Source: Treponema sp. (GTDB lineage: Bacteria > Spirochaetota > Spirochaetia > Treponematales > Breznakiellaceae). Taken from it: 33,631 nt of DNA. Made by a program: the position numbers and the translations under genes. This document shows positions 1-14,943 of the stretch, one piece after another (the stretch's first letter is position 1; every line of letters starts with the position of its first letter). The stretch spans positions 1-33,631 of the forward strand of contig WQSF01000020.1 of assembly GCA_009788065.1 (NCBI GenBank), written 5' to 3'. Below the pieces are notes generated by a model. The model was not told the DNA's origin. It ran no database searches and saw only the letters and a program-made list of their open reading frames with translations.

Positions 1-167
1 GTGTTTTTATTGGAAAATTCATTGCTGAAATTCCTGTAAAACATGACAGCCTCGCTTTGCGTCAGCACCTTGTCCAAATCTTCGAAGGGGAAGACCGCAA
101 TGCTCTCCTGCGCGAACAACACCGCCGCAAGAACCGCAAAAGCCATTGTTAAAATCATTCTTTTCAT
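1..167 (-). CDS. secreted CsgG/LpoB-like array protein, cut by left edge (g1)
   Basis: Only the first 55 codons are in the window. The ATG at 167 follows a clear AGGAGAAAAG ribosome site at 171-180. The peptide opens with MKRMILTMAFAVLAAVLFAQ, a signal peptide ending in the same LFAQ cleavage motif as its neighbours, then continues ESIAVFPFEDLDKV. That stretch is almost the same as the start of the mature proteins encoded at 5581-6429 and 6518-7504. It is therefore the eighth member of the tandem array and carries the second type of N-terminal domain. Its C-terminal domain, which by analogy should be DUF1566 with a variable tip, lies beyond the left edge. Partial, but family membership is clear. 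Confidence 0.85.
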   Translation of the reverse strand, partial: MKRMILTMAFAVLAAVLFAQESIAVFPFEDLDKVLTQSEAVMFYRNFSNEFSNKN

Positions 168-258: not shown

Positions 259-381
259 TTAAAAAGCCCGAACGGCACGGACGTGGTAGTTGCGGTTCTT
301 GTAAGTGTTGTACTGTCTGCCACCACTGCCGAATTCCTGATACCACGCGTAACTGTAATCGAGCTGCGACGAAGACCAGTA
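259..381 (-). other. hypervariable C-terminal cassette of g2
   Basis: Runs from the TAC of YWSSSQ to the TAA. The scaffold codons TCT TCG TCG CAG, GCG TGG, CAG, TTC and AAG match the other copies. The five codons after SSSQ are CTC GAT TAC AGT TAC (LDYSY), mostly NNC or NNT. One variable position carries GAA and breaks the NNY pattern. Interpreted as a DGR-type variable region by codon pattern only. Confidence 0.55.
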
Positions 382-1377
382 ATCATTGCCACTAAAACCG
401 CCCAAGCCTTTCGCTTTTAAATTCTTATACATTAGATTAAGTTGATCTTTATCCGGCAAATACCATCCTGTAATTCCATTAATATTAAGTTGACGACACC
501 GGCTGACAGCATTATCCCATGCTGCGCTAAATTCAGTATTGGCAGGAGCTGCTTCCAAATATCTCCAGCCGTCATTATTGTTTCCCTTATCGTAGAATAC
601 ATATCCTCCGCCGGGTCCTATTGCTCCCATATAATATTTGAACTCCATCTTCGTTATGCCTCTTTGCGTAATAGTTACCGTATTGCTCAATTCACTTCCA
701 TTTGCAAAAACCATTTTTACCGTGTACGTTCCGGGTTTTTCTATCGGTATTGAATGTTTATCGTTGTCCCACAATGTCGCTATTTCTTCGTTCTGGAAAT
801 AAAGCGTTCCTCCTTCTTTTGTGCTAACCTCAATAGAAATTCCTGTCGCGGCGGGCGTTCTTCTTGCCTGCCCCTGCACAATCGCGCCTTTTTCGTCCGC
901 GGACATTCCGGCTGCGAACTTTGCCATTAACGAATTTATTCCGTTAAATAATTCACGCGAGCCGCTTCCCATAAAATCATTGTCGCTGTGTGAAAACTGC
1001 CCTGTGCTTACGTCAAGCACGCGCACCGTTACAGCGTAATCGTTTCCCATTGCGTCTAACGAACCTGTTACAATGTAGCTGATGTTTTGCAATTGCAGTT
1101 TCTTTAGGTTTTCCGAGCTTGAGATACTTCTTACCTGTATTTTTTGGTTTTCAAGCAGTTTGTCAATATCGTCCCTTGTAATGATCTGGTATTTTCTTGT
1201 TCCCACCATCTGGCTTTCTACAAGGTTGCGCACGGTTATCGCGTCCGCTTTTGTTTTTTCATTGCTGATGTTTGTATTAAATTCAACAACAGCAAGCCGC
1301 GGCAAAGCAGTCTCCTGCGCGAAAAGCCCTATGGAAAGCAGAGCCAGTAACGCGGCTAATAAAATAAATCTTTTCAT
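259..1377 (-). CDS. secreted CsgG-like / DUF1566 variable-tip protein with extra beta domain (g2)
   Basis: 372 residues. The ATG at 1377 is chosen because TTTTGGAGGT lies just upstream; the frame stays open further only across the tail of the next gene. Residues 1-21 are a signal peptide ending LFAQ. About 24-165 form a CsgG/LpoB-like domain (PRLAVVEF, ITRDDIDKLLENQ, ISYIVTGSL, VRVLDVSTG). About 180-250 is a segment not found in its paralogues (GGTLYFQNE, PGTYTVKMVF), which looks like a PEGA-type beta sandwich. From about 250 to the end is a DUF1566 domain (GPGGGYVFYDKG, WRYLEAAP, WYLPDKDQLNLMYKNL, YWSSSQ, VRAVRAF). The last 40 codons are the hypervariable cassette. Likely exported to the envelope or surface. 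The ligand is unknown. Confidence 0.8.
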   Translation of the reverse strand: MKRFILLAALLALLSIGLFAQETALPRLAVVEFNTNISNEKTKADAITVRNLVESQMVGTRKYQIITRDDIDKLLENQKIQVRSISSSENLKKLQLQNISYIVTGSLDAMGNDYAVTVRVLDVSTGQFSHSDNDFMGSGSRELFNGINSLMAKFAAGMSADEKGAIVQGQARRTPAATGISIEVSTKEGGTLYFQNEEIATLWDNDKHSIPIEKPGTYTVKMVFANGSELSNTVTITQRGITKMEFKYYMGAIGPGGGYVFYDKGNNNDGWRYLEAAPANTEFSAAWDNAVSRCRQLNINGITGWYLPDKDQLNLMYKNLKAKGLGGFSGNDYWSSSQLDYSYAWYQEFGSGGRQYNTYKNRNYHVRAVRAF

Positions 1378-1402: not shown

Positions 1403-1522
1403 TTAAAAAGCGCGGATAGCGCGAACTGAGACCGTAATTTCCTTGTCGTAGTTGAGTTGATTGCCATTGAGGAAACTCTGGAGCCACGAGCTACCACTAT
1501 CGCTCTGCGACGAAGACCAGTA
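1403..1522 (-). other. hypervariable C-terminal cassette of g3
   Basis: After TCT TCG TCG CAG come AGC GAT AGT GGT AGC, then TCG TGG CTC CAG AGT TTC CTC. The third bases agree with the sister copies column by column (C, T, T, T, C), while bases 1-2 differ. Ends GCT TTT TAA. Confidence 0.55.
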
Positions 1523-2422
1523 AATAAATGTCAAATTGGTTGTATCTCCTCTTGTTACAAAATTCCCTAGTCCCTTCGCTTTTAAATTTCTATACATCAA
1601 GTCCAGCTCATCTTTGCTTGGTAAGAACCAGTCTTTGATGCTGTCAAAATCCAAACTTGTGCAAAGTTGAGCCGCTCTTCTGTTTTCTCCTTTGCTTTTT
1701 AAATACTCCACGATAAGCTGCGTGTTTCTTTTTCCTGAACCAACCGCGGTTGATGTTCCTGCTACATCATGCTGATACGCTCCCCATTGTGCGCGAAATT
1801 CTGTTTCTAAAGGCGCCACTTCCAAATACCTCCAGCCGCCGGAAAATACTCCTTTGTCATAAAATATTATTCCTCCGGCAGGACCTGTATCTCCTATTTT
1901 GTAAGTTCTTCCTGTACCCTGTACAATCGCACCTCCTTCATCTGCGGACATACCGGAATTAAACTTTTTCATTAAATTGGTGATACCATTGAATAATTCA
2001 CGAGAACCACTGTTTATAAAATCATTGTCGCTGTGGGAATAGCGTCCTGTACTCACGTCAAGTATTCTAATTGTAATTACATAATCATTTTCATTTGCGT
2101 TTAACGAGCCAGTTACAATGTAACTTATATTCTGCAATTGCAATTTCTTAAGGTTTTCCGCGCTTGAAATACTGCTTACTTGTATACGCTGATTCGCGAT
2201 TAATTTATCTATATCTTCACGGGTAATTATTTCATATTTCCCGGTTTTTACCATTTCGCTTTCTGCTACTTCTCTTACTGTTATCGCGTCTCGTTTTATT
2301 TTGGCGGTATTGTCATTAACCGCAAACTCTACAACAGCGAGCCGGGGGAGAGCGGTCTCCTGCGCGAAAAGTTCTGCACTTAGCAGAGCTAACAACGCAA
2401 GCAATACAATAAATCTTTTCAT
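1403..2422 (-). CDS. secreted CsgG-like / DUF1566 variable-tip protein (g3)
   Basis: 339 residues. The ATG at 2422 follows AAGGAGTGTTTGA. Residues 1-21 are a signal peptide (ending ELFAQ). About 24-165 is a CsgG/LpoB-like domain (PRLAVVEFAV, IITREDIDKLI, QNISYIVTGSL, RILDVSTG). A short linker leads to the DUF1566 domain at about 170-339 (GDTGPAGGIIFYDKG, WRYLEVAP, GSGKRNTQLI, DWFLPSKDELDLMYRNL, YWSSSQ, VRAIRAF). Its first 170 codons are nearly identical in DNA to those of the gene at 3516-4544, which points to recent duplication or gene conversion, whereas the tip after YWSSSQ differs at most variable positions. It ends 25 bases before the next member, so co-transcription is likely. Function inferred as a surface ligand-binding protein; the ligand is unknown. 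Confidence 0.8.
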   Translation of the reverse strand: MKRFIVLLALLALLSAELFAQETALPRLAVVEFAVNDNTAKIKRDAITVREVAESEMVKTGKYEIITREDIDKLIANQRIQVSSISSAENLKKLQLQNISYIVTGSLNANENDYVITIRILDVSTGRYSHSDNDFINSGSRELFNGITNLMKKFNSGMSADEGGAIVQGTGRTYKIGDTGPAGGIIFYDKGVFSGGWRYLEVAPLETEFRAQWGAYQHDVAGTSTAVGSGKRNTQLIVEYLKSKGENRRAAQLCTSLDFDSIKDWFLPSKDELDLMYRNLKAKGLGNFVTRGDTTNLTFIYWSSSQSDSGSSWLQSFLNGNQLNYDKEITVSVRAIRAF

Positions 2423-2755: not shown

Positions 2756-2989
2756 ATGGCAAGAATGACAGATGAAGAAGCTGACGCTCTTGATGAACAA
2801 GTAACAAAAAATCCGCCAAAAGTAACTGGTGACGGGAAAAGCGGTTTTTTTATGAAACACAAAGGAAATGTTGTTATTTTAGATGATGTATCATCAACTT
2901 GGCTTCGAGCAAAATCAGAATCTACGCATAAATCACCTTCTGATATTATCAGCGAAATGATACGAGAAAAAATTGCTTTTGCTTCATAA
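2756..2989 (+). CDS. BrnA-like antitoxin
   Basis: 77 residues. The ATG at 2756 is preferred over the in-frame ATG at 2741 because GGAGG lies at 2743-2747, within the last codons of the toxin gene. The N-terminus MARMTDEEADALDEQVTKNP resembles BrnA-like antitoxins (an acidic helix followed by a P-P-K-V turn). The C-terminus (SSTWLRAKSESTHKSPSDIISEMIREKIA) reads as a ribbon-helix-helix-like DNA-binding and dimer segment. Expected to neutralise the upstream toxin and repress the shared promoter. Family placement moderate. Confidence 0.6.
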   Translation: MARMTDEEADALDEQVTKNPPKVTGDGKSGFFMKHKGNVVILDDVSSTWLRAKSESTHKSPSDIISEMIREKIAFAS

Positions 2990-2992
2990 ATA

Positions 2993-3088
2993 TCACATTT
3001 CATTGTTATAATATCCCGCTCCTCCACCCTCAAATATCCCTGCACTTAGCAGAGCAAGTAATCCAAGCAACAAAACAAATCTTTTCAT
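2993..3088 (-). pseudogene. signal-peptide fossil of another array member
   Basis: The ATG at 3088 is followed by MKRFVLLLGLLALLSAGIF, clearly the start of an array protein. It then reads EGGGAGYYNNEM and stops at the TGA at 2993-2995, giving 31 codons. The usual AQ cleavage site and the whole mature protein are missing. Its leader, AAGGAGTGTTTGA before the ATG, is the same as that of g3. The simplest reading is that the toxin-antitoxin unit entered behind the signal peptide of an array gene, or that recombination swapped the body away and left the start behind. Confidence 0.75.
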
Positions 3089-3099
3089 TCAAACACTCC

Positions 3100-3128
3100 T
3101 TGTTCTTTATTTCAATTTGCTATATACT
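3100..3128 (+). promoter_or_regulatory. promoter of the YefM-like gene
   Basis: TTGTTC at 3100-3105 and TATACT at 3123-3128 are exactly 17 bases apart. The ATG follows after 7 bases with no ribosome site, so a leaderless mRNA is likely. The promoter overlaps the leader of the fossil gene on the other strand. Confidence 0.5.
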
Positions 3129-3135
3129 TTGTTTC

Positions 3136-3396
3136 ATGGAAACGATATATAAATTGAATGCGCAGGATCTTACCTCCAGTTTTGTAGCTTCTGTTCAAAG
3201 TGCGTACCTCGATCGTGATATCGAAATAACTGTACGCGAAGCAGATTCCTCTATGGATGAAACTGAATATTTAATGCTATCCCCTGCTAATCGTACCCAT
3301 ATAACAAACGCAATTGAAAATATCGAAAATGGCAAAAATATAATTTATTTTAAAAATCTTGAACAAGCCATAGAAAAAGCAGAAAAGGCATCATAA
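3136..3396 (+). CDS. YefM/Phd-like orphan antitoxin
   Basis: 86 residues from the ATG at 3136 (METIYKLNAQDL). The C-terminal half, DETEYLMLSPANR followed by ITNAIENIENGKN, matches the toxin-binding part of YefM (E-E-T-x-Y-L-L-x-S-P-A-N then a helix ending in a GK turn). The N-terminal half is less typical. It stops 2 bases before the remnant of a YoeB toxin in another frame, which fixes the identification: it is the antitoxin of a YefM/YoeB pair whose toxin has been largely deleted. It may persist as an anti-addiction protein or be decaying. Confidence 0.7.
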   Translation: METIYKLNAQDLTSSFVASVQSAYLDRDIEITVREADSSMDETEYLMLSPANRTHITNAIENIENGKNIIYFKNLEQAIEKAEKAS

Positions 3397-3398
3397 GT

Positions 3399-3503
3399 AA
3401 TTGGTCGGGGTATTGGTCTCGCCGCATTACCTATGAGCATAGATTGATTTATAAGGTTTCTGCTGATAGTGTCTTTATTGCTTCTTGTAAATATCATTAC
3501 TAA
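3399..3503 (+). pseudogene. yoeB: C-terminal remnant of YoeB toxin
   Basis: Immediately after the antitoxin stop, the frame from 3399 reads 34 codons to the TAA at 3501-3503. It includes GYWSRRI, EHRLIYKV and the terminal SCKYHY. These match the last third of YoeB, whose E. coli form ends in a WSRRI, EHRLVY and CRYHY pattern. The family is about 84-90 residues long, so roughly the first 50 codons and the start codon are missing, including the helical part and the catalytic glutamate region. The catalytic arginine and the terminal H-Y are still encoded. No start codon serves it, so it is a deletion remnant. Confidence 0.85.
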
Positions 3504-3515
3504 CCTCTAACTCCC

Positions 3516-3635
3516 TTAAAAAGCCCGTATGGCACGAACTGAGTAGGTACTACCCTTGTAGTTGTAGCCTTGATTGCCATTGTCGAAATTCTGATCCCAC
3601 GCGTTACCATTACTGTCCTGCGACGAAGACCAGTA
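3516..3635 (-). other. hypervariable C-terminal cassette of g4
   Basis: After TCT TCG TCG CAG come GAC AGT AAT GGT AAC, then GCG TGG GAT CAG AAT TTC GAC AAT GGC. This copy is rich in unmutated-looking AAT/AAC codons, so it may be the closest in the window to the hypothetical template. Confidence 0.55.
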
Positions 3636-4544
3636 AACATGAGTCCAATTTGTTCTGTCTTCTCTCGTAATAAAATTCCCCAGACCTTTCTGTGCGAGAT
3701 TCTTATACATCAAGTCAAGCTCATCTTTGCTAGGTAAAAACCAGTCTTTAATGCCGTTAAAATCCAAACTTGCACAAAGTAGAGCCGCTCGTCCGTTTTC
3801 ACCTTTACTTCTAAGATGTTCTACAATAAGCTGCGTGTTCCTTTTGCCGGAACTTATCACTGTTCCTGTCCCCGCCACGTCCTGTTGGTACGCTCCCCAC
3901 TGAGCGCGGAATTCTGTTTCAAAAGGCGCCGCTTCCAGATACCTCCAGCCATCGGAAATATTTCCCTTGTCATAAAAAATTATTCCGCCTGCTGGTCCTG
4001 TATCTCCAATCTTATATGCTGCTGCACCTCTTCTTGATTGTCCCTGTACAATCGCACCTCCTTCTTCAGTTGACATACCGGAATTAAACTTTTTCATTAA
4101 ATTGGTGATACCATTGAATAACTCACGAGAACCACTGTCTACAAAATCATTATCACTGTGGGAATAGCGTCCTGTACTCACGTCAAGTATTCTAATTGTA
4201 ATTACATAATCATTTTCATTTGCGTTTAACGAGCCGGTTACAATGTAACTGATATTCTGCAATTGCAATTTTTTAAGGTTTTCCGCGCTTGCTATACTGC
4301 TAACCTGTATACGCTGATTCACGATTAATTTATCAATATCTTCACGGGTAATTATTTCATATTTCCCGGTTTTTACCATTTCGCTTTCAGCCACTTCTCT
4401 TACTGTTATCGCGTCTCGTTTTATTTTGGCGGTATTGTCATTAACCGCAAACTCCACAACAGCGAGCCGGGGGAGAGTTGCAGTTTGAGCGAAGATTAAT
4501 GTCGTTAATAATGATGTTATAATTAATAAAACCAATCTTTTCAT
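3516..4544 (-). CDS. secreted CsgG-like / DUF1566 variable-tip protein (g4)
   Basis: 342 residues; the ATG at 4544 follows TTTTGGAGGAAAT. The signal peptide differs from the other members (MKRLVLLIITSLLTTLIFAQ), but the CsgG/LpoB-like domain at about 22-165 is nearly identical to that of g3 (PRLAVVEFAV, IITREDIDKLI, SYIVTGSL, DVSTG). The DUF1566 domain spans about 175-342 (GDTGPAGGIIFYDKG, WRYLEAAP, GSGKRNT replaced by SSGKRNT, DWFLPSKDELDLMYKNL, YWSSSQ, VRAIRAF). This is the first array member on the promoter side of the toxin-antitoxin island, which lies just downstream of its stop. Readthrough from here to g3 would have to cross the island in antisense. Confidence 0.8.
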   Translation of the reverse strand: MKRLVLLIITSLLTTLIFAQTATLPRLAVVEFAVNDNTAKIKRDAITVREVAESEMVKTGKYEIITREDIDKLIVNQRIQVSSIASAENLKKLQLQNISYIVTGSLNANENDYVITIRILDVSTGRYSHSDNDFVDSGSRELFNGITNLMKKFNSGMSTEEGGAIVQGQSRRGAAAYKIGDTGPAGGIIFYDKGNISDGWRYLEAAPFETEFRAQWGAYQQDVAGTGTVISSGKRNTQLIVEHLRSKGENGRAALLCASLDFNGIKDWFLPSKDELDLMYKNLAQKGLGNFITREDRTNWTHVYWSSSQDSNGNAWDQNFDNGNQGYNYKGSTYSVRAIRAF

Positions 4545-4570: not shown

Positions 4571-4696
4571 TTAAAAAGACCTAATGGGACGGACTGAGTA
4601 GGTTCTATGCTTTCCGTAGTCGCTGTTACCAATACTGCCATTGTAGAAATTCTGACCAAACGCGTAACTGCCATCGGACTGCGACGAAGAAAAGTA
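4571..4696 (-). other. hypervariable C-terminal cassette of g5
   Basis: After TCT TCG TCG CAG come TCC GAT GGC AGT TAC, then GCG TTT GGT CAG AAT TTC TAC AAT GGC. TGG has become TTT at two scaffold positions, which adenine mutagenesis alone would not produce. This copy has therefore also drifted. Confidence 0.5.
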
Positions 4697-5530
4697 TCTA
4701 TCATCACTAAAACTACCAATTCCTTTTACTTTCAAATTTTTATACATTAAATCCAGCTCATCTCTACTTGGTATAAACCAGTCGCGGTAGCCACTATAAT
4801 TTAAATTACTGCAAAATTGTGAAGCTGTATTTTGCCATTTTCTCGCATTGGCTTCAGCAAGCATAAACTCTGTATTCCGCTTACCACTACCTATTACAGT
4901 ATGTGCCCCACTTACATTACCATCACCCCACCTAGCTACAAATTCCAACTCAAGCGGAGCAGCTTCCAAATATCTCCAATTATTGGAATAGTTACCTTTA
5001 TCATAAAAAATAAATCCGCCTGCAGGACCTTTATCACCGATTTTATATACGATTGTTGATCTTGGTTTTGGAAGTTTTTCCATTAATTCTTTTACAAAAC
5101 CCTGCATTTTATCAAATACTTCGCTCATATCTTTCATTCTTAGAGTAGATGAAGAAATGATTTGCGCGGTGTTTAAATCAAGTATTGTTGAGGTTAAAGC
5201 GGACGAACCGGCAATTACCATAACAGAACCTTGAATGATACTGCTTGCGTTTAACGCTTTTCCTAACTGAACAACTCTTTCGTTGTTTGTCCAGTCTGAT
5301 GCCTGAAACTTCATTTCCGCCATAATTTTGTCTAAACTGCTTCTGTTTACCACATTAACAGAGCCGTCAGAAACTAATGCCGCTATAAATAAATCTGTAA
5401 TAGCATCAGCGTCATCCTTTGTAAGCCCGCTTCGCGCTTCAAACGTGCTTACAGCAACTGTAAGCTGCTGCGCAAAAAGCCCTGCACCCAGCAGAGCCAT
5501 TAACGCGACAATTAAAACAAATCTTTTCAT
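4571..5530 (-). CDS. secreted CsgG-like / DUF1566 variable-tip protein, third N-domain type (g5)
   Basis: 319 residues; the ATG at 5530 follows TCTGGAGGTAAT. The signal peptide (MKRFVLIVALMALLGAGLFAQ) is close to that of g7 and g8. The N-terminal domain at about 23-150 is again CsgG/LpoB-like but of a distinct subtype (LTVAVSTFEARSGL, VNVVNRSSLDKIMAEM, SSIIQGSVMV, LDLNTAQI). A short linker leads to a DUF1566 domain (GDKGPAGGFIFYDKG, WRYLEAAP, GSGKRNTEF, DWFIPSRDELDLMYKNL, FSSSQ, VRPIRSF). The tip has FSSSQ and AFGQ, where its sisters have WSSSQ and AW, so two scaffold tryptophans have become phenylalanine. Confidence 0.8.
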   Translation of the reverse strand: MKRFVLIVALMALLGAGLFAQQLTVAVSTFEARSGLTKDDADAITDLFIAALVSDGSVNVVNRSSLDKIMAEMKFQASDWTNNERVVQLGKALNASSIIQGSVMVIAGSSALTSTILDLNTAQIISSSTLRMKDMSEVFDKMQGFVKELMEKLPKPRSTIVYKIGDKGPAGGFIFYDKGNYSNNWRYLEAAPLELEFVARWGDGNVSGAHTVIGSGKRNTEFMLAEANARKWQNTASQFCSNLNYSGYRDWFIPSRDELDLMYKNLKVKGIGSFSDDRYFSSSQSDGSYAFGQNFYNGSIGNSDYGKHRTYSVRPIRSF

Positions 5531-5577: not shown

Positions 5578-5592
5578 CGCTCAGAATGAGCG
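5578..5592. repeat. hairpin at the 3' end of g6
   Basis: CGCTCA, GAA, TGAGCG: a perfect 6-bp inverted repeat with a 3-base loop. It spans the stop codon at the end of the variable cassette. The same hairpin ends g7 at 6515-6529. Confidence 0.7.
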
Positions 5593-5700
5593 TATGGCAC
5601 GAACTGAGTAAGTACTAACCTTGGTGAAGTTGTTCTGATTGCCACTGCTGAAATACTGACCCCACGCGTAATTACTACCGAGCTGCGACGAAGACCAGTA
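5581..5700 (-). other. hypervariable C-terminal cassette of g6
   Basis: After TCT TCG TCG CAG come CTC GGT AGT AAT TAC, then GCG TGG GGT CAG TAT TTC AGC AGT GGC. Scaffold codons are identical to g4 and g8 although the N-terminal domains are of different subtypes. Confidence 0.55.
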
Positions 5701-6429
5701 AGCACTTGTTCCAAAACCACCCATACTCTTCGATTTTAAATTCTTGTACATCAAGTCAAGCTCAGATTGACTGGGAAGTTTCCAATCTGTAAAACCTCCT
5801 CCTCTGTGATTCCGCGCGGCTCTTATCGCGTCATCCCAGTTAAATGTACCTAAGTCCATGCTGCACTCCATGTATATTCCGTTCTCAGCAAAAAAAACAA
5901 AACCTCCTCCTGGTCCTTTATCTCCTATTTTGTAAACTTTAGGAGGTTGATTTGCTATAATCACTTCCTGCATATTCTTAACAAGCTCAGGTATCTTGTC
6001 AAAAAGTTCATCTATATTAGTTACGCGCAATGAAGTACCTCCAGGCAGTTGTTGAAGCTCAGGATAATTGTATAAAGATACGGATATGCTTATCCTGCTT
6101 CCAACTTTTCCTATTACGCCTGACAATATCTGCGTACCGTTTAAAACTCTCTGCATTTCTGCGGTTTTTGCTTTTGCAGAAAAATCACTTAACTGGAAAG
6201 CGGCTTCTGTATTAATTAGTTTTTCCACTTCCTGACGCGGTACAATTTTAAATTTCCCTGCGTTTTTATTGGTAAATTCATTACTGAACTCGCGGTAAAA
6301 CATTACATATTCGTTTCGTGTAAATACCTTGTCTAGGTCTTCGAATGGAAAGACAGCGATACTTTCTTGCGCGAAAAGCTCTGCACATTTCAGAGCTAAT
6401 AAGCCAACCAACAAAACTATTCTTTTCAT
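5581..6429 (-). CDS. secreted CsgG-like / DUF1566 variable-tip protein, short form (g6)
   Basis: 282 residues; the ATG at 6429 follows TCTGGAGGTAATT. The signal peptide ends ELFAQ. The N-terminal domain at about 22-150 is the second subtype, shared with g1 and g7 (ESIAVFPFEDLDKVF, KIVPRQEVEKLIN, NGTQILSGVIGKV, ISISVSLYNYP). The DUF1566 part is short: after GDKGPGGGFVFF it goes to ENGIYMECSMDLGTFNWDDAI rather than the WRYLEAAP and GSGKRNT segments, then WKLPSQSELDLMYKNL, YWSSSQ and VRAIRSF. The 3' end differs from most sisters: the stop is TGA inside a small hairpin, and a CGGGCTTTTTAA end survives 10 bases beyond it. Confidence 0.8.
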   Translation of the reverse strand: MKRIVLLVGLLALKCAELFAQESIAVFPFEDLDKVFTRNEYVMFYREFSNEFTNKNAGKFKIVPRQEVEKLINTEAAFQLSDFSAKAKTAEMQRVLNGTQILSGVIGKVGSRISISVSLYNYPELQQLPGGTSLRVTNIDELFDKIPELVKNMQEVIIANQPPKVYKIGDKGPGGGFVFFAENGIYMECSMDLGTFNWDDAIRAARNHRGGGFTDWKLPSQSELDLMYKNLKSKSMGGFGTSAYWSSSQLGSNYAWGQYFSSGNQNNFTKVSTYSVRAIRSF

Positions 6430-6514: not shown

Positions 6515-6529
6515 CGCTCAGAATGAGCG
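6515..6529. repeat. hairpin at the 3' end of g7
   Basis: Identical to the element at 5578-5592: CGCTCA, GAA, TGAGCG. It contains the TGA of g7. Confidence 0.7.
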
Positions 6530-7504
6530 TATGGCACGAACTGAATGCCTTTGATTCTTACGACCATCAGGATAAGTACCGCCACTAAATGTGAAACCAT
6601 CACTAAAGCGAATAGACCACGAAAGCCAATTATCCATTTGCGATGAAGACCAATACCAACCGTCACTAAAATTTCCCAATCCTCTTTGTTTAAGATTTTT
6701 ATACATCAATTCCAATTCGTCTTTACTTGGCAGAAACCAGTCTGTAAATCCATCGAAATTTATATCTGTACATAACTGTGCAATACGTACAGATTTTCTA
6801 ATAAGTTCGGTATTACGTTTTCCACTTCCAATTACTGTTCCTGTGCTAGGCACATCAACATCTGCTCCCCATTGAGCGCGAAACTCAGTTTCAACAGGAG
6901 CTGCTTCTAAATATCTCCAACCATTAGAAAAAACTCCTTTATCATAAAATACAATTCCACCGGCAGGACCAAAGTCGCCTACTTTATAAACCTTATTTGA
7001 AGAACCGCTTTGTGATCTTGAGCTTCCACCTGCTATTGCTTCCTGCATACTCTGCACAAGTTCAGGTATTTTATCAAAAAGATCTATTACACTGTTTACA
7101 CGAAGCGTCGCTCCGCCGGGTAATTGTTCTAGTTGTGGGTATGTATACAAAGACACAGATATGCTTATACTGTTTCCCACTTTCCCTATTACACCGGATA
7201 ATATTTGAGTGCCGTTTAACACTCTCTCCATTTCCGCGGTTTTCGCTCTTGCCGAAAAATCGCTTAACTGGAAGGCGGCTTCTGTATTTATTAGTTTTTC
7301 TACTTCCTGACGCGGTACAATTTTAAATTTACCTGCGTTTTTATTCGTAAATTCATTACTGAAGTTGCGATAAAACATAATAGATTCGTTTCGTGTAAAT
7401 ACCTTGTCTAGATCTTCAAAGGGGAAAACTGCAATACTTTCTTGCGCAAAAAGCCCTGCGCATTGCAGAGCCATTAACGCGACAATTAAAACAATTCTTT
7501 TCAT
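6518..7504 (-). CDS. secreted CsgG-like / DUF1566 protein with diverged tip (g7)
   Basis: 328 residues. The ATG at 7504 is chosen because TCTGGAGGTAATT lies directly upstream, although the frame is open for eight more codons. The signal peptide (MKRIVLIVALMALQCAGLFAQ) is nearly identical to that of g8, while the mature N-terminal domain is the g1/g6 subtype (ESIAVFPFEDLDKVF, VPRQEVEKLIN, NGTQILSGVIGKV). A serine-rich linker (GGSSRSQSGSSN) leads to DUF1566 (GDFGPAGGIVFYDKG, WRYLEAAP, GSGKRNTELI, DWFLPSKDELELMYKNL, YWSSSQ, VRAIRSF). The tip after SSSQ (MDNWLSWSIRFSDG) uses different scaffold codons (TCA, CAA, TCG, TTT) and is longer than in the sisters, so this copy looks outside the homogenised set. 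Confidence 0.8.
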   Translation of the reverse strand: MKRIVLIVALMALQCAGLFAQESIAVFPFEDLDKVFTRNESIMFYRNFSNEFTNKNAGKFKIVPRQEVEKLINTEAAFQLSDFSARAKTAEMERVLNGTQILSGVIGKVGNSISISVSLYTYPQLEQLPGGATLRVNSVIDLFDKIPELVQSMQEAIAGGSSRSQSGSSNKVYKVGDFGPAGGIVFYDKGVFSNGWRYLEAAPVETEFRAQWGADVDVPSTGTVIGSGKRNTELIRKSVRIAQLCTDINFDGFTDWFLPSKDELELMYKNLKQRGLGNFSDGWYWSSSQMDNWLSWSIRFSDGFTFSGGTYPDGRKNQRHSVRAIRSF

Positions 7505-7534
7505 AATTACCTCCAGAAAAATTCCCAATTTTTG

Positions 7535-7590: not shown

Positions 7591-7710
7591 TTAAAAAACC
7601 CGAATGGCACGGACGTAGAGTGTACTACCCTTGTAGCTACTGCGCTGATTGCCATTGCTGAAAACCTGAATCCACGCGTCACTACTACTGAACTGCGACG
7701 AAGACCAGTA
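7591..7710 (-). other. hypervariable C-terminal cassette of g8
   Basis: After TCT TCG TCG CAG come TTC AGT AGT AGT GAC, then GCG TGG ATT CAG GTT TTC AGC AAT GGC. The third bases match the sister cassettes at nearly all variable columns. Confidence 0.55.
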
Positions 7711-8595
7711 CCAATCGTCCTTAAAACCACCCAAGCCTTTCGCTTTTAAATTCTTGTACATCAAGTCCAGCTCGTCCTTGCTGGGCAAAAACCAGTCTTT
7801 AAATCCGCTTATCTCCATTCCAACGCATATCTGCGCCGCGCGGTCGTTCTCCCCTAATTGTTTTAGTCTGTTGGCAATCAGTTCTGTGTTTCTTTTGCCG
7901 CTGCCCACCGCTGTTCCTGTTCCTGTTACATCTCTTTCATAGGCGCCCCACTGCGCGGTAAAATCAGTTCCGGCAGGTGCTGCTTCTAAATAACGCCAGC
8001 CGTCGGAAACAAATCCTCTGTCATAAAAAATTATTCCTCCGGCGGGACCTGTGTCGCCTATTTTATATATCCTTCCCGTGCCGCTCTGCCCCTGCACGAT
8101 TGTGCCACCCTCTCCTGCTGACATTCCTGAATTAAACTTAGTCATTAAACTTGTTATACCTGTATATAGTTCCCGCGAAGCGCTTCCCATAAAATCGTTG
8201 TCGCTGTGCGAAAACTGCCCTGTGCTTACATCAAGCACACGCACCGTTATCGCGTAGTCGTTACTCATTGCAGATAACGAGCCTGTTACTATGTAGCTGA
8301 TGTTCTGTAATTGCAGTTTCTTCAAATTTTCAGAGCTTGAAATGCTGCTTACCTGTATTTTTTGGTTTTCCAGCAGTTTGTCTATGTCGTCGCGCGTGAT
8401 AATCTGGTATTTGCGCGTTTTTACCATTTCGCTTTCGACAAGCTCGCGCACTGTTATCGCGTCCGCTCTTGTTTTATCATTAGCGATGTTTGTGGCAAAC
8501 GATACAACCGCAAGACGGGGCAAAGCCGCATTTTGCGCAAAAAGCCCTGCGCATTGCAGAGCCATTAACGCGACAATTAAAACAAATCTTTTCAT
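7591..8595 (-). CDS. secreted CsgG-like / DUF1566 variable-tip protein (g8)
   Basis: 334 residues; the ATG at 8595 follows GAGGTAAT. Signal peptide MKRFVLIVALMALQCAGLFAQ. CsgG/LpoB-like domain at about 23-165, first subtype (PRLAVVSFATN, IITRDDIDKLLENQ, SYIVTGSL, VRVLDVSTGQFSHSDNDF), closest to that of g2. DUF1566 domain from about 178 (GDTGPAGGIIFYDRG, WRYLEAAP, GSGKRNTELI, DWFLPSKDELDLMYKNL, YWSSSQ, VRAIRVF). It is the array member nearest the presumed promoter and starts 9 bases after the caspase-like gene, so the array is probably transcribed together with it. Likely a secreted or surface ligand-binding protein. Confidence 0.8.
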   Translation of the reverse strand: MKRFVLIVALMALQCAGLFAQNAALPRLAVVSFATNIANDKTRADAITVRELVESEMVKTRKYQIITRDDIDKLLENQKIQVSSISSSENLKKLQLQNISYIVTGSLSAMSNDYAITVRVLDVSTGQFSHSDNDFMGSASRELYTGITSLMTKFNSGMSAGEGGTIVQGQSGTGRIYKIGDTGPAGGIIFYDRGFVSDGWRYLEAAPAGTDFTAQWGAYERDVTGTGTAVGSGKRNTELIANRLKQLGENDRAAQICVGMEISGFKDWFLPSKDELDLMYKNLKAKGLGGFKDDWYWSSSQFSSSDAWIQVFSNGNQRSSYKGSTLYVRAIRVF

Positions 8596-8604: not shown

Positions 8605-9843
8605 CTAATCCCTAAAAAACGTAAAGCGTGCAGGTGATCCGTTCGCAGCGGGTCTTGCCAAAATATTAAAAGAGTTATTGTCTCCTGTAAAAGTAACAAT
8701 ACTAACCCATTGCAGATTTCTTTGATATGAAATTTTCGCGTTTCTGAAAACAGCGCTTAATTTAAATGTCGAACCGTCGTACGACCAGTTTCCGTTTGTT
8801 TCCTGCTCCGCGTCGTCATTGGTTATTTTTACGGTACAGCGTCCGTTAGCTGATAAATTAATCTGATATGTGTCAAATGAATTGTTATACTCGACTATCG
8901 CTGTCCACGGTCCTGTAAAATATGCCTGATCTGCGGACGCCCCCTGTTTTGGAAGCTGAGGCGAAGGAGTACTTGCTGTCGGCGTATTCGATACATACGG
9001 CTGATCCGTTACGCTGATTTTTTCGCTTCTTCTAAAAAATAAAAAACTGCCTCCTTCCTGATGCTCGCTTCCGCGAATTACACCTAACAAAGGCTGAGTG
9101 GATTTTACTTCTCTGACGCTCACAAAAATATAATCGGGGTCTATGCACGCTCCCTCGGCACGGATTAAACTGCTTTTAAAACGCATAATAAATTCCGACG
9201 CGTCCGGCACCCTCTCGCTTGAGCCGCTTGTCATTACCTTTCTGCTGATAAGAGCGTAAGCGCGGCGGTAATAATCGCTGTCTATTCTAGGAGAAGCGCT
9301 GCGGTTAATATCAAGAATATCACCTGAAAAACAGGAGTCCGCTACAAGGAACACATGCTTTGCCGGTAAAAGCGAAATCATGTTGCGAATCTGACCGTTC
9401 GGCAGCCAGTTAGCCTGTCCTTTATTAATATCTTGTCCGTCCGAGGGAATCCAAAAACCTGTATTGGTTTCGTGATCCGTGTGTCCGTGTCCCGCGAAAA
9501 ACACAAAAACAGAATCGTTCTTTCCCAGTTGAGACCTAAGCCCTACAAGCAGTTGTCTTATTCCGTTATTTGTAGCGTCGCTGTCATAAAGCTCTCTTAC
9601 TTCGTCTATATAATAATTTTCCAATAGAATATTTTTTATTTCCCGCGCGTCCTTAACGGGATTTTTCAACGGGCTCCATTCCAGATACTTGTCTATAGCG
9701 ATAAGTACCGCCCATTGTTTGCCGACATTAATGTTTGAACCAACGGCAGTTTCCAAATCGCCGCCCCGTGTCTGCGCGGGAATGTTAAACCAAACCGCGC
9801 TTAACAATAAAATTGTTAAAAATACCCGAATTGTTTTCTTCAT
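8605..9843 (-). CDS. secreted caspase-like (peptidase C14) protein
   Basis: 412 residues from the ATG at 9843, chosen because GAGGTGAGG precedes it; a GTG three codons upstream is less well placed. Residues 1-24 are a signal peptide ending PAQ, so the protein acts outside the cytoplasm. About 42-270 is a caspase/metacaspase fold: WAVLIAIDKY, the histidine motif FFAGHGHTD (His119) and the cysteine motif ADSCFSGD (Cys171), so the dyad is intact. A proline/threonine-rich linker at about 280-300 leads to a beta-rich C-terminal domain (FTGPWTAIVEYNN, NGRCTVKITNDD, NGNWSYDGSTFKL) of lipocalin-like look. It overlaps the end of the DUF4384 gene and sits 9 bases before the array, so it is co-expressed with the variable proteins. 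Its substrate is unknown. Confidence 0.85.
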   Translation of the reverse strand: MKKTIRVFLTILLLSAVWFNIPAQTRGGDLETAVGSNINVGKQWAVLIAIDKYLEWSPLKNPVKDAREIKNILLENYYIDEVRELYDSDATNNGIRQLLVGLRSQLGKNDSVFVFFAGHGHTDHETNTGFWIPSDGQDINKGQANWLPNGQIRNMISLLPAKHVFLVADSCFSGDILDINRSASPRIDSDYYRRAYALISRKVMTSGSSERVPDASEFIMRFKSSLIRAEGACIDPDYIFVSVREVKSTQPLLGVIRGSEHQEGGSFLFFRRSEKISVTDQPYVSNTPTASTPSPQLPKQGASADQAYFTGPWTAIVEYNNSFDTYQINLSANGRCTVKITNDDAEQETNGNWSYDGSTFKLSAVFRNAKISYQRNLQWVSIVTFTGDNNSFNILARPAANGSPARFTFFRD

Positions 9844-9848
9844 TTTCC

Positions 9849-12350
9849 TCACCTCTGTCCAAAAAATGCTTTTATTTCTTTTTCTATCAATGAATTGGGA
9901 ATTACCAGCGGTTTATCAGTTATCGTTACATTCACCAGTTCAGCCACCGCATATTGTCCTGTAATTCCGCTGGCTTTAAAATTTCCCTGCTGTTCGTTGC
10001 CGTTGAATGTTCCGCCTTTTTCCTGAATACCGGCTCTTACAAGACTAATTGCCTGCGGCATATTACCGGGTCTTGTGAACGAGAAATTAAATCCCGCGCC
10101 TTTATTAATCGCGCCGGCTCGCGAACCGCCTGTAAAATTTTCCATGTTATAAACGGCAAATTGAATTTTATCGGGGTTTTCCCGCGATACGCGGTAACTG
10201 CCGCGCACGCTGTTCATCGTATACAAACCGCTTACTTCGTTTCCTTCAAATGTTCCGCCCTGTTTTAAAGCGTCACTTCGAATGTTGTTTATTAAATCGC
10301 CCATATTTTCAGGTTTTCCGTATTCATATTCTTCATGAGGTTTTAATATGGTTATCTTGTATATCGCTTCCCCCTCCCTTATGGAAGTATTTGGTCTTGT
10401 TCCGGCTTCAAGCTCGCCTGAACGCCCTCCCCTAACTGCAGCTCTTACCGTTTCGGCAGTCGCGGGTGTCCACGGCGCTATATATTCCTGTTCTATATTC
10501 TTAAACTGCTCGCTGCTTGCAACAATAATTATTGTCTCCGCTCCGTAAGGACCGTACAGCATGTATTTCGCGTTTTCAAATATATCTCTCGGAGAATTTG
10601 CCCTAAGCGAATTATTTTTGTCGGAACTGTTTGGATAAATCATCTTCATTTGATTGTTAACATCAATATGAATAACTTTAAAATAACAGTTTCTGTCGGC
10701 ATTTAATGTCATTTTTAATTCGTCTCTGTGCAAAAATGTCCGGCTTGCGGAATTAAAAAAAGCTTTTATATTAATCCCTTGGCTGGTATCTGCAGGTTCA
10801 ATAACAGATTTTTGCGCGACTATATTTTTATTTTCAGGGTCTATTGCTATCCCGTTTTCCGCAAGATATTCAACAGCGATAGAAAAATATTGAGAGCCTT
10901 CGGTGTCTCCGCTTGCGGTTATCAGTTCCAGTGTAACGTCAACCTGATTGTTTCTTCTTGTAAAAAATCCCGTAATGTGTACTAATTTATTACTGTCCCT
11001 GCCTGTATTCTCGCGGCTAACGCGGTATTTTTTACCGGGATTATTAATCGCGTGATGCGTCACTCTTTCTGTCAGATAACGCGATAATCCCGTGGGTATA
11101 TCAGTTCCTGTTAATGTAAAAGGACCAATATTTGTTTCCGTCTGATTTTTAAGCGGTATCGCCAGTGTATCAACCGCTTTTTTTATTCCTTCTTCTATTT
11201 CATTTCTGTTTCTTAATACCAGTGTAAGCGGCGTTACTTCAAATGAAAACCCCGAGCTGATATTTTTAACAATACCGCCTGTTAATTCGTTTAACAGAGC
11301 TTCAACCTGCACGGAATATCTTCCGGGTTCCATGGAATTGGTATGAAAGGACATGGAAAATGTATTGTCATTTGTAACTGTGTAATTAACAACAGGAATG
11401 TCCATGTTCATTCCCGTAATACTTACACTGCAGTTAAAAGGTCCCAAAACTGGGAATTGCGCCGATTGTAATTTAACAACTGTGTCCAATGTATCCGATT
11501 TTTTAACAGTCCTGTTTTGCAGACTTGCGATGCTCAGGCTGTTTGCAAGTTCGTTTATGCTTGACACTATATAACCATACAAACCGACTCTTCCTTTACC
11601 TGTGTCATAATATGCCGTAATCCTGTGCAGAGGATTTTGCTCCAGAGCTTTTACAACCTGAACATATCCTTCCATTGCCGCTTTTAACGTCGATCTCTTT
11701 TCCAGCATAGCCGCGTATCTCTGTGAAATATTTTTGGTAAAATTGGCTATGTCATCTTCTGTTTTTTGCCTTCCAATCTGGCAGAGCGTATAAACTATGT
11801 ATTCTTCTTTATTGTTATTATTAAGATAAACTTCCGTAAAGTAACGATCGGTTCCTACCTGAGAAATTACGTGTTCGGCATAACTTCTTAACTCATCTTC
11901 GCGGCTTACATAAGCTTCAAGAGTATCTCTAGTATTTCCGCCGATACTTGTTCTTGCTATAGCTCTGCTCTCCATAAACTCGCCGTAGAATTTTAAAACC
12001 TGATTTCTGGCATTCTCCCGCGAGTTGTCACGGGCATTTGCCGCAGTGTCAAACGGCTGTGATGTTCCTATAAAAAAGAACTCGGTCGCGCTCTGCGGAA
12101 CCGCGTCAACCCAATCCGGCCTTTGGGCAGGATCGGTTCGTAACAGAAATCTCATTTCTTTTAAAGGTAAAACGCCTTGTAAAGAATCGTTTCCGCTTGA
12201 TAGTATGCTATGTTGATTATCATCCTGCGTGCCATTTGCAAAAACAAACATTTGCGATGTTAATGCAAAACAGATAACGAATATTGCCTGCGCGATATGC
12301 GCCGGAATAACGCGTGTTATTCCAACGCTGTTTTTACCGAGTTCTTTCAT
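9849..12350 (-). CDS. large LPP20/DUF4384-type envelope protein
   Basis: 833 residues; the ATG at 12350 lies 3 bases after the LPP20 gene, with AGGA about 9 bases upstream. A hydrophobic segment at about 18-38 (AIFVICFALTSQMFVFA) is a signal peptide or anchor. About 70-215 resembles the LPP20 family (RPDWVDAVPQSATEFFFIGTSQ, ENARNQVLKFYGEF) and is related to the smaller protein encoded next door. The middle contains CsgG/FlgT-like strands. About 530-620 is a DUF4384 domain (LHRDELKMTLNADRNCYFKV, MKMIYPN), common next to secreted caspase-like proteins. Two copies of a ~55-residue repeat lie near 680-735 and 755-810 (GGTFEGNEVSGLY and GGTFNGNEQQGNF). The role is unknown; it is probably a periplasmic partner of the caspase-like protein. 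Confidence 0.7.
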   Translation of the reverse strand: MKELGKNSVGITRVIPAHIAQAIFVICFALTSQMFVFANGTQDDNQHSILSSGNDSLQGVLPLKEMRFLLRTDPAQRPDWVDAVPQSATEFFFIGTSQPFDTAANARDNSRENARNQVLKFYGEFMESRAIARTSIGGNTRDTLEAYVSREDELRSYAEHVISQVGTDRYFTEVYLNNNNKEEYIVYTLCQIGRQKTEDDIANFTKNISQRYAAMLEKRSTLKAAMEGYVQVVKALEQNPLHRITAYYDTGKGRVGLYGYIVSSINELANSLSIASLQNRTVKKSDTLDTVVKLQSAQFPVLGPFNCSVSITGMNMDIPVVNYTVTNDNTFSMSFHTNSMEPGRYSVQVEALLNELTGGIVKNISSGFSFEVTPLTLVLRNRNEIEEGIKKAVDTLAIPLKNQTETNIGPFTLTGTDIPTGLSRYLTERVTHHAINNPGKKYRVSRENTGRDSNKLVHITGFFTRRNNQVDVTLELITASGDTEGSQYFSIAVEYLAENGIAIDPENKNIVAQKSVIEPADTSQGINIKAFFNSASRTFLHRDELKMTLNADRNCYFKVIHIDVNNQMKMIYPNSSDKNNSLRANSPRDIFENAKYMLYGPYGAETIIIVASSEQFKNIEQEYIAPWTPATAETVRAAVRGGRSGELEAGTRPNTSIREGEAIYKITILKPHEEYEYGKPENMGDLINNIRSDALKQGGTFEGNEVSGLYTMNSVRGSYRVSRENPDKIQFAVYNMENFTGGSRAGAINKGAGFNFSFTRPGNMPQAISLVRAGIQEKGGTFNGNEQQGNFKASGITGQYAVAELVNVTITDKPLVIPNSLIEKEIKAFFGQR

Positions 12351-12353
12351 AAT

Positions 12354-13073
12354 TTAAAATCCTAAAGTTGAGCTTAAATTACCGCCGAAGAATTCAGCCG
12401 CTTTCTGCAGCTGTTGTCTTCTTACAGCGTCCTGTTCCGCCGCCGCTCTCTTGGCGTAATCAGCGGCTTGTTCTCTTCCGTAGTTGTCAATAACTCTTGC
12501 AACTAACGTCTTGTCAATCTGCATCAGTACATACACTTCAAACGCTTCCCTGTTTGTTTGATCCAGATAAACAAGAGTGTAATAACTGCGCGGAGCAAGA
12601 GCCTGCGAAACATTCTGCGCAATTCTCTCGTTCAATTGTTGTCCGGCAATTTGCGGAGCAAGCACATCGCTTGTAATTCCGAAAGTCGCCGCATGAGTTC
12701 TTGCCTGATTCGCCATTAATGTTCCGTAAAAATCAACAAGCTGCGTTCTTCCATTTTCTTCCGCGAAATAACGAGCGCCGTGATTACCTGTCGCCGTCGC
12801 ATAACGTCCTGCGGAACCGATAAAACTCAGCGTTGTCGGTGAATCCGGCACTTCGTCCACCCAGTCAGGTCTGCGGGCGGGCTCTGTGCGAATCGGCGTA
12901 GCCGCGGCGATTGCCGCATCACGCGCTGATGGCGCCGCAGCGGGTCTCTGAGCCTGAACAGGCGCCTGTGCCGCCGACGGCGCTTGCGCCGCGCCCTTGC
13001 TTGACGCGCAGCTGATTGCCGCAATCGCTGTAACAGAGATGGTTAATAAAACCAAAATTTGTTTTACTTTCAT
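12354..13073 (-). CDS. LPP20-family lipoprotein
   Basis: 239 residues; the ATG at 13073 follows AGAAGGAGTTTTAT. A lipobox (AAISC, Cys at about 22) ends the signal peptide, so it is membrane-anchored. A low-complexity Ala/Gln/Pro stretch (to about 55) leads to an LPP20 domain: RPDWVDEVPDSPTTLSFIGS, ENGRTQLVDFYGTLM, and a YYTLVYLDQTNREAFEVYVLMQI strand region. The same R-P-D-W-V-D motif opens the next protein, so the two are paralogous over this domain. The gap to the next gene is 3 bases, consistent with an operon. Confidence 0.8.
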   Translation of the reverse strand: MKVKQILVLLTISVTAIAAISCASSKGAAQAPSAAQAPVQAQRPAAAPSARDAAIAAATPIRTEPARRPDWVDEVPDSPTTLSFIGSAGRYATATGNHGARYFAEENGRTQLVDFYGTLMANQARTHAATFGITSDVLAPQIAGQQLNERIAQNVSQALAPRSYYTLVYLDQTNREAFEVYVLMQIDKTLVARVIDNYGREQAADYAKRAAAEQDAVRRQQLQKAAEFFGGNLSSTLGF

Positions 13074-13179
13074 ATAAAACTCCTTCTCTTTTTTTCATCA
13101 CCGCAACGCGGCGAATATTCCAAATACATATAGATAGACATAACATAGGCTGCGTTTTTACACTTTTAAAAATAAAAAA

Positions 13180-14073
13180 TCATTTATTTCTACTCCATAC
13201 ATTACTGTCAGCATCCTGCCGGATATAAATTCCCGCCGCTTTACCGTGGTTGTTATACGCATTGGCAAAATTACCTGGAATCGAGCTTTCATCTATGGAA
13301 ACATTCGCTCCAATCGTAACACTGACAATCGGATTATCCGCGAATGCGTTTTTACCAATGGAAGTTATCCTTTGAGGTATAACAATCTCTGTTAACTGTC
13401 TGTTCGCGAACATATTTTCAAAAATAAACGAAATACCGGGCGGAATATTTAAATTGGAGTTTTCCTGTATACTGCTTTGTGCGGGAACGGTATTCACGTT
13501 CTGCCCGGCGGAGCCCGCTGTGCCCCTTGTATACACTTCCTGTTGTGAATCAGGTAAAACTGCGACAGTTACAGTTTCATTCTTAATAATTGGCTTGTTA
13601 TCATTTTTAATTTCAATATCTTTTTTTTTATCTGGAATAGTGAAACTTTTTTCTTCTGTAATAATTATATTATTTTCGGGAATTGAATGAATTTCCATAT
13701 TATTATAAATTTCACCGGCAATAAAACTGTCAGTATTTTTATTGATTTCTCTAAAATATATAAAAGGCGGTATTAAAATACATAAAATAATAGCTGCCGC
13801 GCAAATACCCCACAGAAGCTTCTTTTTGCGTTGTAAAGTTTTCGATTCGTAAACATCAATATTATCATTTTTAATTAAAGAAAACACAGGCGGTTTAATT
13901 AATGAATATTTATTTTTAATTTCTTTATCGAGTTTTTTTAATTCATCGTATCGCAAACGAACCTCATTATCTGTAAGCAATGCGTCCTCGATATATTTGC
14001 GTTCTTTTTTAGACAGAGCGTCCAAATGATAGAGTTCAAGCATAAATTGTGTTATTCGCTTTACTTCTTTCAT
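13180..14073 (-). CDS. putative anti-sigma factor with leucine-rich-repeat tail
   Basis: 297 residues. The ATG at 14073 overlaps the sigma-factor TGA (ATGA), so translation is coupled. About 1-60 is a helical, charged cytoplasmic part (MLELYHLDALSKKERKYIEDALL) in the place where an anti-sigma domain is expected. One membrane helix lies at about 85-108 (LLWGICAAAIILCILIPPFIYF). The outside part contains a spacer and, at about 215-275, BspA-like leucine-rich-repeat units (LTEIVIPQRITSIGKNAFADN, then IVSVTIGANVSI). The arrangement suggests a sensor that holds the sigma factor and reads an envelope cue. No known anti-sigma motif (such as a zinc-binding HxxxCxxC) is seen, so the role is inferred from context. 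Confidence 0.6.
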   Translation of the reverse strand: MKEVKRITQFMLELYHLDALSKKERKYIEDALLTDNEVRLRYDELKKLDKEIKNKYSLIKPPVFSLIKNDNIDVYESKTLQRKKKLLWGICAAAIILCILIPPFIYFREINKNTDSFIAGEIYNNMEIHSIPENNIIITEEKSFTIPDKKKDIEIKNDNKPIIKNETVTVAVLPDSQQEVYTRGTAGSAGQNVNTVPAQSSIQENSNLNIPPGISFIFENMFANRQLTEIVIPQRITSIGKNAFADNPIVSVTIGANVSIDESSIPGNFANAYNNHGKAAGIYIRQDADSNVWSRNK

Positions 14074-14627
14074 TTTTTATCCTTGTTAATTTTCTGCTGA
14101 ATTTTATTTCTTAATCTGATTATTCTGTTGTTAACAGCATTAATGCTAAGCCCGGTAATTTCGCCTATTTCTTTGAGAGTCATTCCATCGTAATATTTCA
14201 TACAATAAACGATTCTGCTTTTTTCATCTTCTTCATTAAACAATGCGTCTGTTAATAATCTGGCTTCGATTATTTCAAATTGCGCATCATGTCCCGGATT
14301 TTCTGCATGAAAATTAGTTTTAAATAATTCTGCAATTTCGCCTTCTTCTTTTTTCCTTAGACAGTCAATACTTGTATTGGTCGCCTCGGCATAAAGTTTC
14401 TGTGCATCTTTTTTTCTTTTCTTGTTTTTAGTTAGTACCATGTTAGTTGCCGTCCTGTATAAGAAACTCTTAGGAGAAACAATCTCCTTTTGCATACGAT
14501 GAAGCCTTGCGAATACATCCTGAGCGGCATTTTCAGCATCTTCATGGTTTCTGAGCATTTGCAAACACCGCCTGTAAACCATAGGGAAATATTCTTTGTA
14601 AAGGGTTTCAAGAAGATTGTTTTCCAT
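14070..14627 (-). CDS. ECF-type RNA polymerase sigma-70 factor
   Basis: 185 residues; the ATG at 14627 has only a weak AAAAGA upstream. Region 2 is visible at about 10-65 (YKEYFPMVYRRCLQMLRNHE, AENAAQDVFARLHR, SFLYRTATN), and region 4 at about 125-180 (IVYCMKYYDGMTLKEIGEIT, then SINAVNNRIIRLRNKI). The length fits ECF factors. It overlaps the downstream membrane protein by 4 bases, a typical sigma/anti-sigma pairing. Being the first gene of the minus-strand run, it is the best candidate regulator of the lipoprotein, caspase-like and variable-protein genes that follow. Confidence 0.85.
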   Translation of the reverse strand: MENNLLETLYKEYFPMVYRRCLQMLRNHEDAENAAQDVFARLHRMQKEIVSPKSFLYRTATNMVLTKNKKRKKDAQKLYAEATNTSIDCLRKKEEGEIAELFKTNFHAENPGHDAQFEIIEARLLTDALFNEEDEKSRIVYCMKYYDGMTLKEIGEITGLSINAVNNRIIRLRNKIQQKINKDKK

Positions 14628-14943
14628 GTTCTTTTCACGTATATATAAGACTCTTGATGGGAGAGTTTTTCCACCAAATTATGTAAATTAAACTTGTAAT
14701 TATTTCCAATTCCATACCTCTCTTGAAAAAAATACTCGTAATACAGACAAAATTATTAAAAAATAATATAAAAAACGTTTGTTATTTTAAAAACATCATA
14801 ATTTATTAACCATTTTTTTAAGAAAATCGCTGTTCCTTATAAGACCATGTTATATAGTCCTTATAGATATTCGTTATTCTATAACCCTAATAGGAAAATA
14901 TCAATAGACCTATAAGATTTTTATGAAAATAGGATAAAACGCC
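14628..14943. promoter_or_regulatory. AT-rich divergent intergenic region with repeated CTTATAG/CTATAAG motifs
   Basis: No gene is seen in these 316 bases, which separate the divergent sigma-factor and XRE genes. Near the XRE start lie related short motifs: CTTATAAG at 14836-14843, CCTTATAGA at 14859-14867, TCTATAACC at 14879-14886 and CCTATAAGA at 14910-14918, plus the palindrome CCTAATAGG at 14886-14894. Their 20-30 base spacing suggests binding sites for a dimeric regulator, most simply the adjacent XRE protein. The rest is A/T runs with no clear structure. Confidence 0.4.

Follow-up and report, generated by a model that had tools for sequence, protein, structure and literature searches.

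A predicted exported caspase homologue in one gene block with DGR-type variable proteins in a treponeme-like gut bacterium, and its fused counterparts in relatives

Background

To our knowledge, few functions are known for the cellular (non-phage) targets of diversity-generating retroelements (DGRs), which act by targeted mutation. Among the closest described systems are those in which a DGR target is joined to a peptidase. In cyanobacteria, orthocaspase domains are found at the N-terminus of DGR variable proteins, and most of the variable proteins are predicted to be cytosolic (Vallota-Eastman 2020, PMC7517822). In the conflict systems of multicellular bacteria, caspase-like peptidases are fused to DGR targets or encoded beside them (Dore 2024, PMC10907252), and the DGR-diversified antigen sensors (Dore 2024, PMC10907252; Kaur 2020, PMC7159879) combine, in each locus, a C-type-lectin sensor with a trypsin- or caspase-type effector, sometimes as separate genes. 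A DGR has also been described in a spirochaete, Treponema denticola, where the variable tips belong to FGE-type lipoproteins such as TvpA (Nimkulrat 2016, PMC4891356). Caspases are mentioned neither in the main text of that paper nor in the global DGR survey, and a partial literature search found no report combining DGRs with "peptidase C14".

Here we analyze a locus of a treponeme-like gut bacterium in which a caspase gene stands apart from, and directly upstream of, an array of genes for variable proteins. The window, i.e. the whole stretch of 33,631 bases that was analyzed, covers almost the whole of contig C20 (33,713 bases), which belongs to a genome of 2.1 Mb in 98 contigs, estimated to be 70% complete. 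An earlier, sequence-only reading of the same DNA had stated that DGR targets joined to protease or conflict domains are known in other bacteria, as the above publications confirm (PMC7517822; PMC10907252), and that no arrangement with separate genes was known, which was too strong, because caspase-like peptidase genes adjoin DGR loci in conflict systems of other kinds (PMC10907252). The cyanobacterial orthocaspase proteins resemble two relatives of our locus described below (genomes G165 and G002), in that a caspase-type peptidase is fused to a DGR-variable C-type-lectin domain; they differ from it by the export-like signals, the DUF4384 and LPP20-like partners and the ECF sigma pair found here, and by the separate caspase gene of the window. 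The antigen-sensor systems rely on ATPases of the MoxR/vWA or NACHT kind and on adaptor domains, whereas MoxR, vWA and STAND/NACHT Pfam domains are absent from the 20 window proteins scanned. Compared with the T. denticola lipoproteins, the tips in the window are of the Lcl_C type and are carried on a CsgG-like domain. The pairing of caspases with DGRs is thus already published, and what appears to be new, judging from predicted features, is its exported, sigma-linked form.

The gene block and its products

On the minus strand, from position 14627 down to 259, genes for an ECF sigma factor and a putative anti-sigma factor are followed by those for an LPP20-like lipoprotein, a DUF4384 protein, a C14 caspase homologue and seven CsgG/Lcl_C proteins, named here G to A (Table 1). 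From the LPP20-like gene through variable protein C the intergenic gaps range from -4 to 88 bases; the anti-sigma and LPP20-like genes are spaced by 106 bases, and variable proteins C and B are set apart by a stretch of 1,093 bases. This break in the array (about 1.1 kb, 2423-3515) opens with the truncated start of a CsgG-type gene (about 3088), followed by unrelated sequence, and a peptide stretch resembling one of the break occurs in another locus, L058. The gap of 9 bases between the caspase gene and the first variable protein (start 8595) was measured as claimed earlier. A single transcription unit had also been proposed, and a general scan for sigma-70 promoters and terminators found neither above chance in the interval between the caspase gene and the array; as the scan returned no more sites than shuffled sequences did, internal signals are neither supported nor excluded by it.

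Table 1. Features of the window (coordinates within the 33,631-base stretch)
Feature	Coordinates	Strand	Basis
ECF-type promoter-like site before sigma gene (TGGTGGAAAAAC ... GTCTTATATA)	14642..14676	-	score 20.7, best in window
ECF sigma factor	14070..14627	-	Pfam Sigma70_r2 4.1e-10, r4_2 1.6e-8; TIGR02937 69.7 bits, over cut-off
Putative anti-sigma factor	13180..14073	-	LRR_5 4.8e-8; 4-base overlap with sigma gene
Second ECF-type promoter-like site, before LPP20-like gene (AAGTGTAAAAAC ... GTCTATCTAT)	13130..13165	-	score 15.4, second best in window
LPP20-like lipoprotein, upstream of DUF4384	12354..13073	-	orthologues 64-76% identical; lipobox AISC|A by eye
DUF4384 protein	9849..12350	-	Pfam DUF4384 E 3e-10, domain in C-terminal half
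C14 caspase homologue (predicted export)	8605..9852	-	Pfam, dyad, hydropathy, PDB profile matches
Variable protein G (CsgG-like + Lcl_C)	7591..8595	-	Pfam CsgG 8.3e-6, Lcl_C 1.9e-9, both above cut-off
Variable repeat of protein G	about 7591-7710	-	codon-position comparison
Variable protein F (likely ATG 7504)	6518..7528	-	Lcl_C 7.3e-8, slightly under cut-off
Variable protein E (variable repeat about 5581-5700)	5581..6429	-	Lcl_C 6.7e-12
Variable protein D	4571..5530	-	Lcl_C 3.3e-9, CsgG 6.3e-7
Variable protein C (variable repeat about 3516-3635)	3516..4544	-	Lcl_C 1.2e-10
Variable protein B (variable repeat about 1403-1522)	1403..2422	-	Lcl_C 5e-7, under cut-off; codon-position shift against C
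Variable protein A (likely ATG 1377 in 259-1497 frame)	259..1377	-	Lcl_C 1.4e-11
Eighth CsgG-type gene, start only, cut by window end	1..167	-	read from sequence: MKRMILTMAFAVLAAVLFAQESIAVFPFEDLDK

The caspase homologue matches Pfam Peptidase_C14 above the cut-off (E 5.6e-11, 43 bits against 21.4), and its profile matches in the PDB are to metacaspases and MALT1, while NCBIfam caspase_w_EACC1 gave 46 bits and did not reach the family cut-off of 140. The His119/Cys171 dyad reported by the sequence-only reading, counted from the ATG at 9843 (motifs AGHGH and DSCFSG), is intact and also invariant in two orthologues. This ATG is the likelier start, since GAGGTGAGG precedes it; the reported overlap with the DUF4384 gene amounts to 4 bases if counted from the upstream GTG and vanishes from the likelier ATG. 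The signal peptide that had been assigned to the protein stands as a prediction from hydropathy, by which a hydrophobic N-terminus is present in the window caspase and in the 15 other caspase proteins examined. In two of these 15 (L099 and L114) a simple search for the GHG motif did not find the His motif, so that the dyad is confirmed for only part of the relatives; L114, for this reason no more than a putative peptidase, is the caspase-FGE protein of G165. Like orthocaspases and metacaspases (C14), the window protein has a p20-type domain with a His/Cys dyad, and it is set apart from them by the predicted export signal (by hydropathy), an additional C-terminal domain (residues 311-414 in the GTG frame) and the DUF4384 partner. 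The same C-terminal domain was also found without a caspase, beside or inside CsgG-type proteins (L056-L064). For the caspase and the LPP20-like protein, AlphaFold2 gave models with a mean pLDDT of 44 and 50, respectively, too poor to interpret.

The N-terminal domain of the DUF4384 protein is related to the LPP20-like lipoprotein (37% match). Its long orthologues are 52-57% identical, and its named relatives come from Treponema MAGs and one contig labelled Fibrobacteria. The same genome encodes a second DUF4384 protein and, following it, a WD40-caspase fusion (L026 8548-13257, on contig G000:C14); this second DUF4384 protein shares 59% identity with the first one over the C-terminal half of the latter. 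The family label "LPP20", given earlier to the upstream lipoprotein, could not be upheld: PF02169 matched one of four orthologues with E 0.047 and more distant relatives with E 0.03-0.14, never above the cut-off (13.1 and 15.1 bits for the two scores listed, against 25.9).

Variable tips and the fused caspases of relatives

Among 13 tips of this genome, many variable codons hold the third base while the first two vary. Between proteins B and C, the differences at codon positions 1, 2 and 3 number 40, 22 and 80 outside the tip and 10, 11 and 3 inside it. A shift to positions 1 and 2 inside the variable core was seen in four of the five pairs tested, most clearly in B/C and C/G, with B/G in agreement, A/G weaker and E/F showing none. 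By this pattern, the array proteins would be classified as DGR-type targets. When the seven window tips were compared with a template from G160, a genome of the same genus, the mismatch rate was 0.49 at template adenines and 0.23 at other bases. An adenine bias is thus present, but differences at the other bases are common too, and we interpret this as a DGR-like signature that drift or a diverged template has made less distinct.

In the source genome itself a template repeat was not found, the good matches to the variable repeat used as the single query being coding copies, and a DGR-type RT was not found either, which is weak evidence of absence, given that the genome is only 70% complete. 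The only RT found, on contig C9, was discounted as a candidate: among NCBIfam models it comes closest to a group II intron RT, below the cut-off, and a search of its neighbourhood gave no template for the window tips. Since neither a template nor a DGR-type RT was found, the array may have been inherited without being diversified any longer.

In relatives, a DGR acts on a caspase gene directly. Contig C43 of G165, of the same genus, encodes in this order a DUF4384 protein, a 543-aa caspase-FGE protein, an HRDC protein, an RT and a template; the accessory gene of the T. denticola DGR is annotated as of the helicase/RNase D type (PMC4891356). The template and the 3' end of the caspase-FGE gene differ at 19 adenines and at no other template base over 141 nt (P 1.8e-12). 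As all 19 mismatches fall on template adenines, the caspase gene itself is the DGR target, and the locus thus has the RT, the template and the variable repeat with adenine-specific mismatches of a DGR. In G002 (L100 625-1773), a template lies in frame within the 3' end of the RT frame, so that the RT would bear a C-type-lectin-like tail, and genes for DUF4384 and a caspase directly follow; against two caspase-FGE genes on another contig this template shows 22 adenine and 6 non-adenine, and 14 adenine and 6 non-adenine mismatches, respectively. G177 and G099 carry a caspase and Lcl_C within one protein, and the G177 tip differs from the G160 template at 16 adenines and 3 other bases over 60 nt. 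Most of the remaining FGE or Lcl_C tips that were compared, among them those of G160:C22, G186 and G136, had no template in the loci searched.

The caspase domains of these fusions belong to the same Pfam family as that of the window and are in part only its distant relatives. The existence of caspase-FGE and caspase-Lcl_C proteins means that the split genes of the window have fused counterparts, and the window looks like a split-gene form of the same caspase-tip arrangement. The proposal of recognition tips paired with a protease thereby gains strong support, as relatives fuse a caspase to a DGR-diversified tip. The further suggestions of the sequence-only reading, namely action outside the cell, cutting, or processing of the array proteins, gain no support from the analysis. 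A near-identical caspase-FGE and Lcl_C stretch is shared by G166 and G171 (L123 and L124), so that the two genomes may come from one organism or from very close ones.

Recurrence in related genomes

We surveyed 200 genomes of the family and found C14 matches in 100 and Lcl_C matches in 119 of them. At least 10 caspase genes have an Lcl_C gene within 3 kb against 2.05 expected (P 6e-5), the expectation being that of random placement, while surface genes may cluster for other reasons as well; with the window and one near-duplicate left out, the numbers are at least 8 and 1.88 (P 7e-4). Among the matches listed, proximity is thus about five times the expectation. Co-occurrence at the level of whole genomes is weak (P 0.04), hence the case for an association rests on local clustering.

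The block is kept in a Treponema MAG of the same genus and on a contig labelled Fibrobacteria. In G186:C164, genes for the sigma factor, an anti-sigma-LRR protein, two CsgG-FGE proteins, the LPP20-like protein, DUF4384, the caspase, a CsgG-TPR and a CsgG-Lcl_C protein follow each other in one direction, and L136, labelled Fibrobacteria bacterium GUT307, has the block from sigma through caspase to a CsgG-type gene, which may reflect either horizontal transfer or mis-binning. DUF4384 followed by a less similar caspase (assigned by Pfam), beside CsgG-Lcl_C genes, is found in G080, G140, G148 and G002:C6. The earlier reading had called for a search of other genomes for caspase, DUF4384 and DUF1566 genes together, and the association, with Lcl_C genes, does recur in several genera. 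The tips are not obligatory: an Lcl_C neighbour is missing for most caspases of the family, and the DUF4384-caspase pair is also seen with WD40 in its place.

Interpretation

We give a probability of roughly one half to the following reading, in which the block encodes a split-gene version of an exported caspase system gated by ligands. The variable C-type-lectin-like tips would bind changing ligands at the cell envelope, such as molecules of phages, rivals or the host; the assembly would be held together by the CsgG-like, LPP20-like and DUF4384 parts; and a bound ligand would release the caspase, or recruit it, to act on an envelope protein in defence or as an alarm. In the fused relatives one protein would both sense and cut, whereas in the window one caspase could serve many sensors. 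If so, rapid, immune-like recognition would be linked with a caspase-type family of protein-cutting enzymes, and such systems, described so far in multicellular bacteria, would extend to (predicted) exported proteins of spirochaetes. A lineage in which a DGR writes into a caspase gene, and in which a caspase of the same family also stands apart from variable partners within one block, would offer a tractable test of whether hypervariable receptors of bacteria control a proteolytic effector.

It is conceivable, if rather unlikely, that the genes share only their regulation, with the sigma factor driving an envelope set in which the caspase serves envelope housekeeping and the tips serve adhesion, as separate jobs. 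DUF4384-caspase pairs without variable proteins nearby (G118, G146) and LPP20-like/CsgG clusters without a caspase in the stretch read agree with such a division of labour, as would a clustering of surface genes for other reasons; against it stand the caspases that several relatives fuse physically to Lcl_C or FGE tips, and the action of a DGR on one such fusion. We regard as very unlikely a role of the caspase in the maturation or shedding of the array proteins, in which it would cut the CsgG-Lcl_C proteins to release or display the tips. The single block with its 9-base gap and the linker that joins the CsgG-like and Lcl_C domains would suit this role, yet the linker has no motif common to all copies, the fused relatives would have to cut themselves, and caspases also exist without such array proteins. 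Least credible of all is an outward weapon, in which variable adhesins would direct the exported protease to rival cells, protists or host tissue: export signals are predicted by hydropathy, and the DGR targets of T. denticola and Legionella are believed to lie on the cell surface (PMC4891356; PMC10907252), but a Pfam scan of the window proteins revealed no dedicated secretion machinery in the block and nothing indicates that the caspase crosses the outer membrane.

The linked sigma/anti-sigma pair

A further reading, which we consider quite improbable, is a DGR-tuned alarm circuit, in which ligand-bound tips would activate the exported caspase, the caspase would cut the envelope-exposed part of the anti-sigma factor, and the freed sigma factor would switch on its own operon, including the caspase and the sensors. 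The observations behind it are gene linkage (in the window, G186, G159, G195 and L136, and for another pair in G176) and a shared promoter-like motif. The putative anti-sigma factor has a cytoplasmic N-terminus, one hydrophobic segment recognized by eye and a BspA-type LRR_5 region at the C-terminus. Full-length orthologues, each beside a sigma gene, were found in four of the genomes searched (G186, G159, G191 and G195) and on L136. Downstream of them lie genes of the caspase block in G186, G159 and L136, and CsgG-Lcl_C in G195; in G159 these are DUF4384 and then a WD40 protein that is truncated where the contig stops, so that any caspase part would lie beyond the sequence, and in G191 the downstream genes have no Pfam matches. 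Another sigma/anti-sigma pair, in G176, directly precedes a caspase.

Between the genes of the sigma/anti-sigma loci a two-box motif was noticed by eye. An ECF-type promoter model was built from four sites in other loci, with 12 shuffles as a control, the best of which scored 15.1. For the site before the LPP20-like gene, position counts for more than the score, which barely exceeds that of the best shuffle. A site of the same type with a score of 18.9 was found just after the anti-sigma gene of G191 (L170:1508), a locus that had not been used in training.
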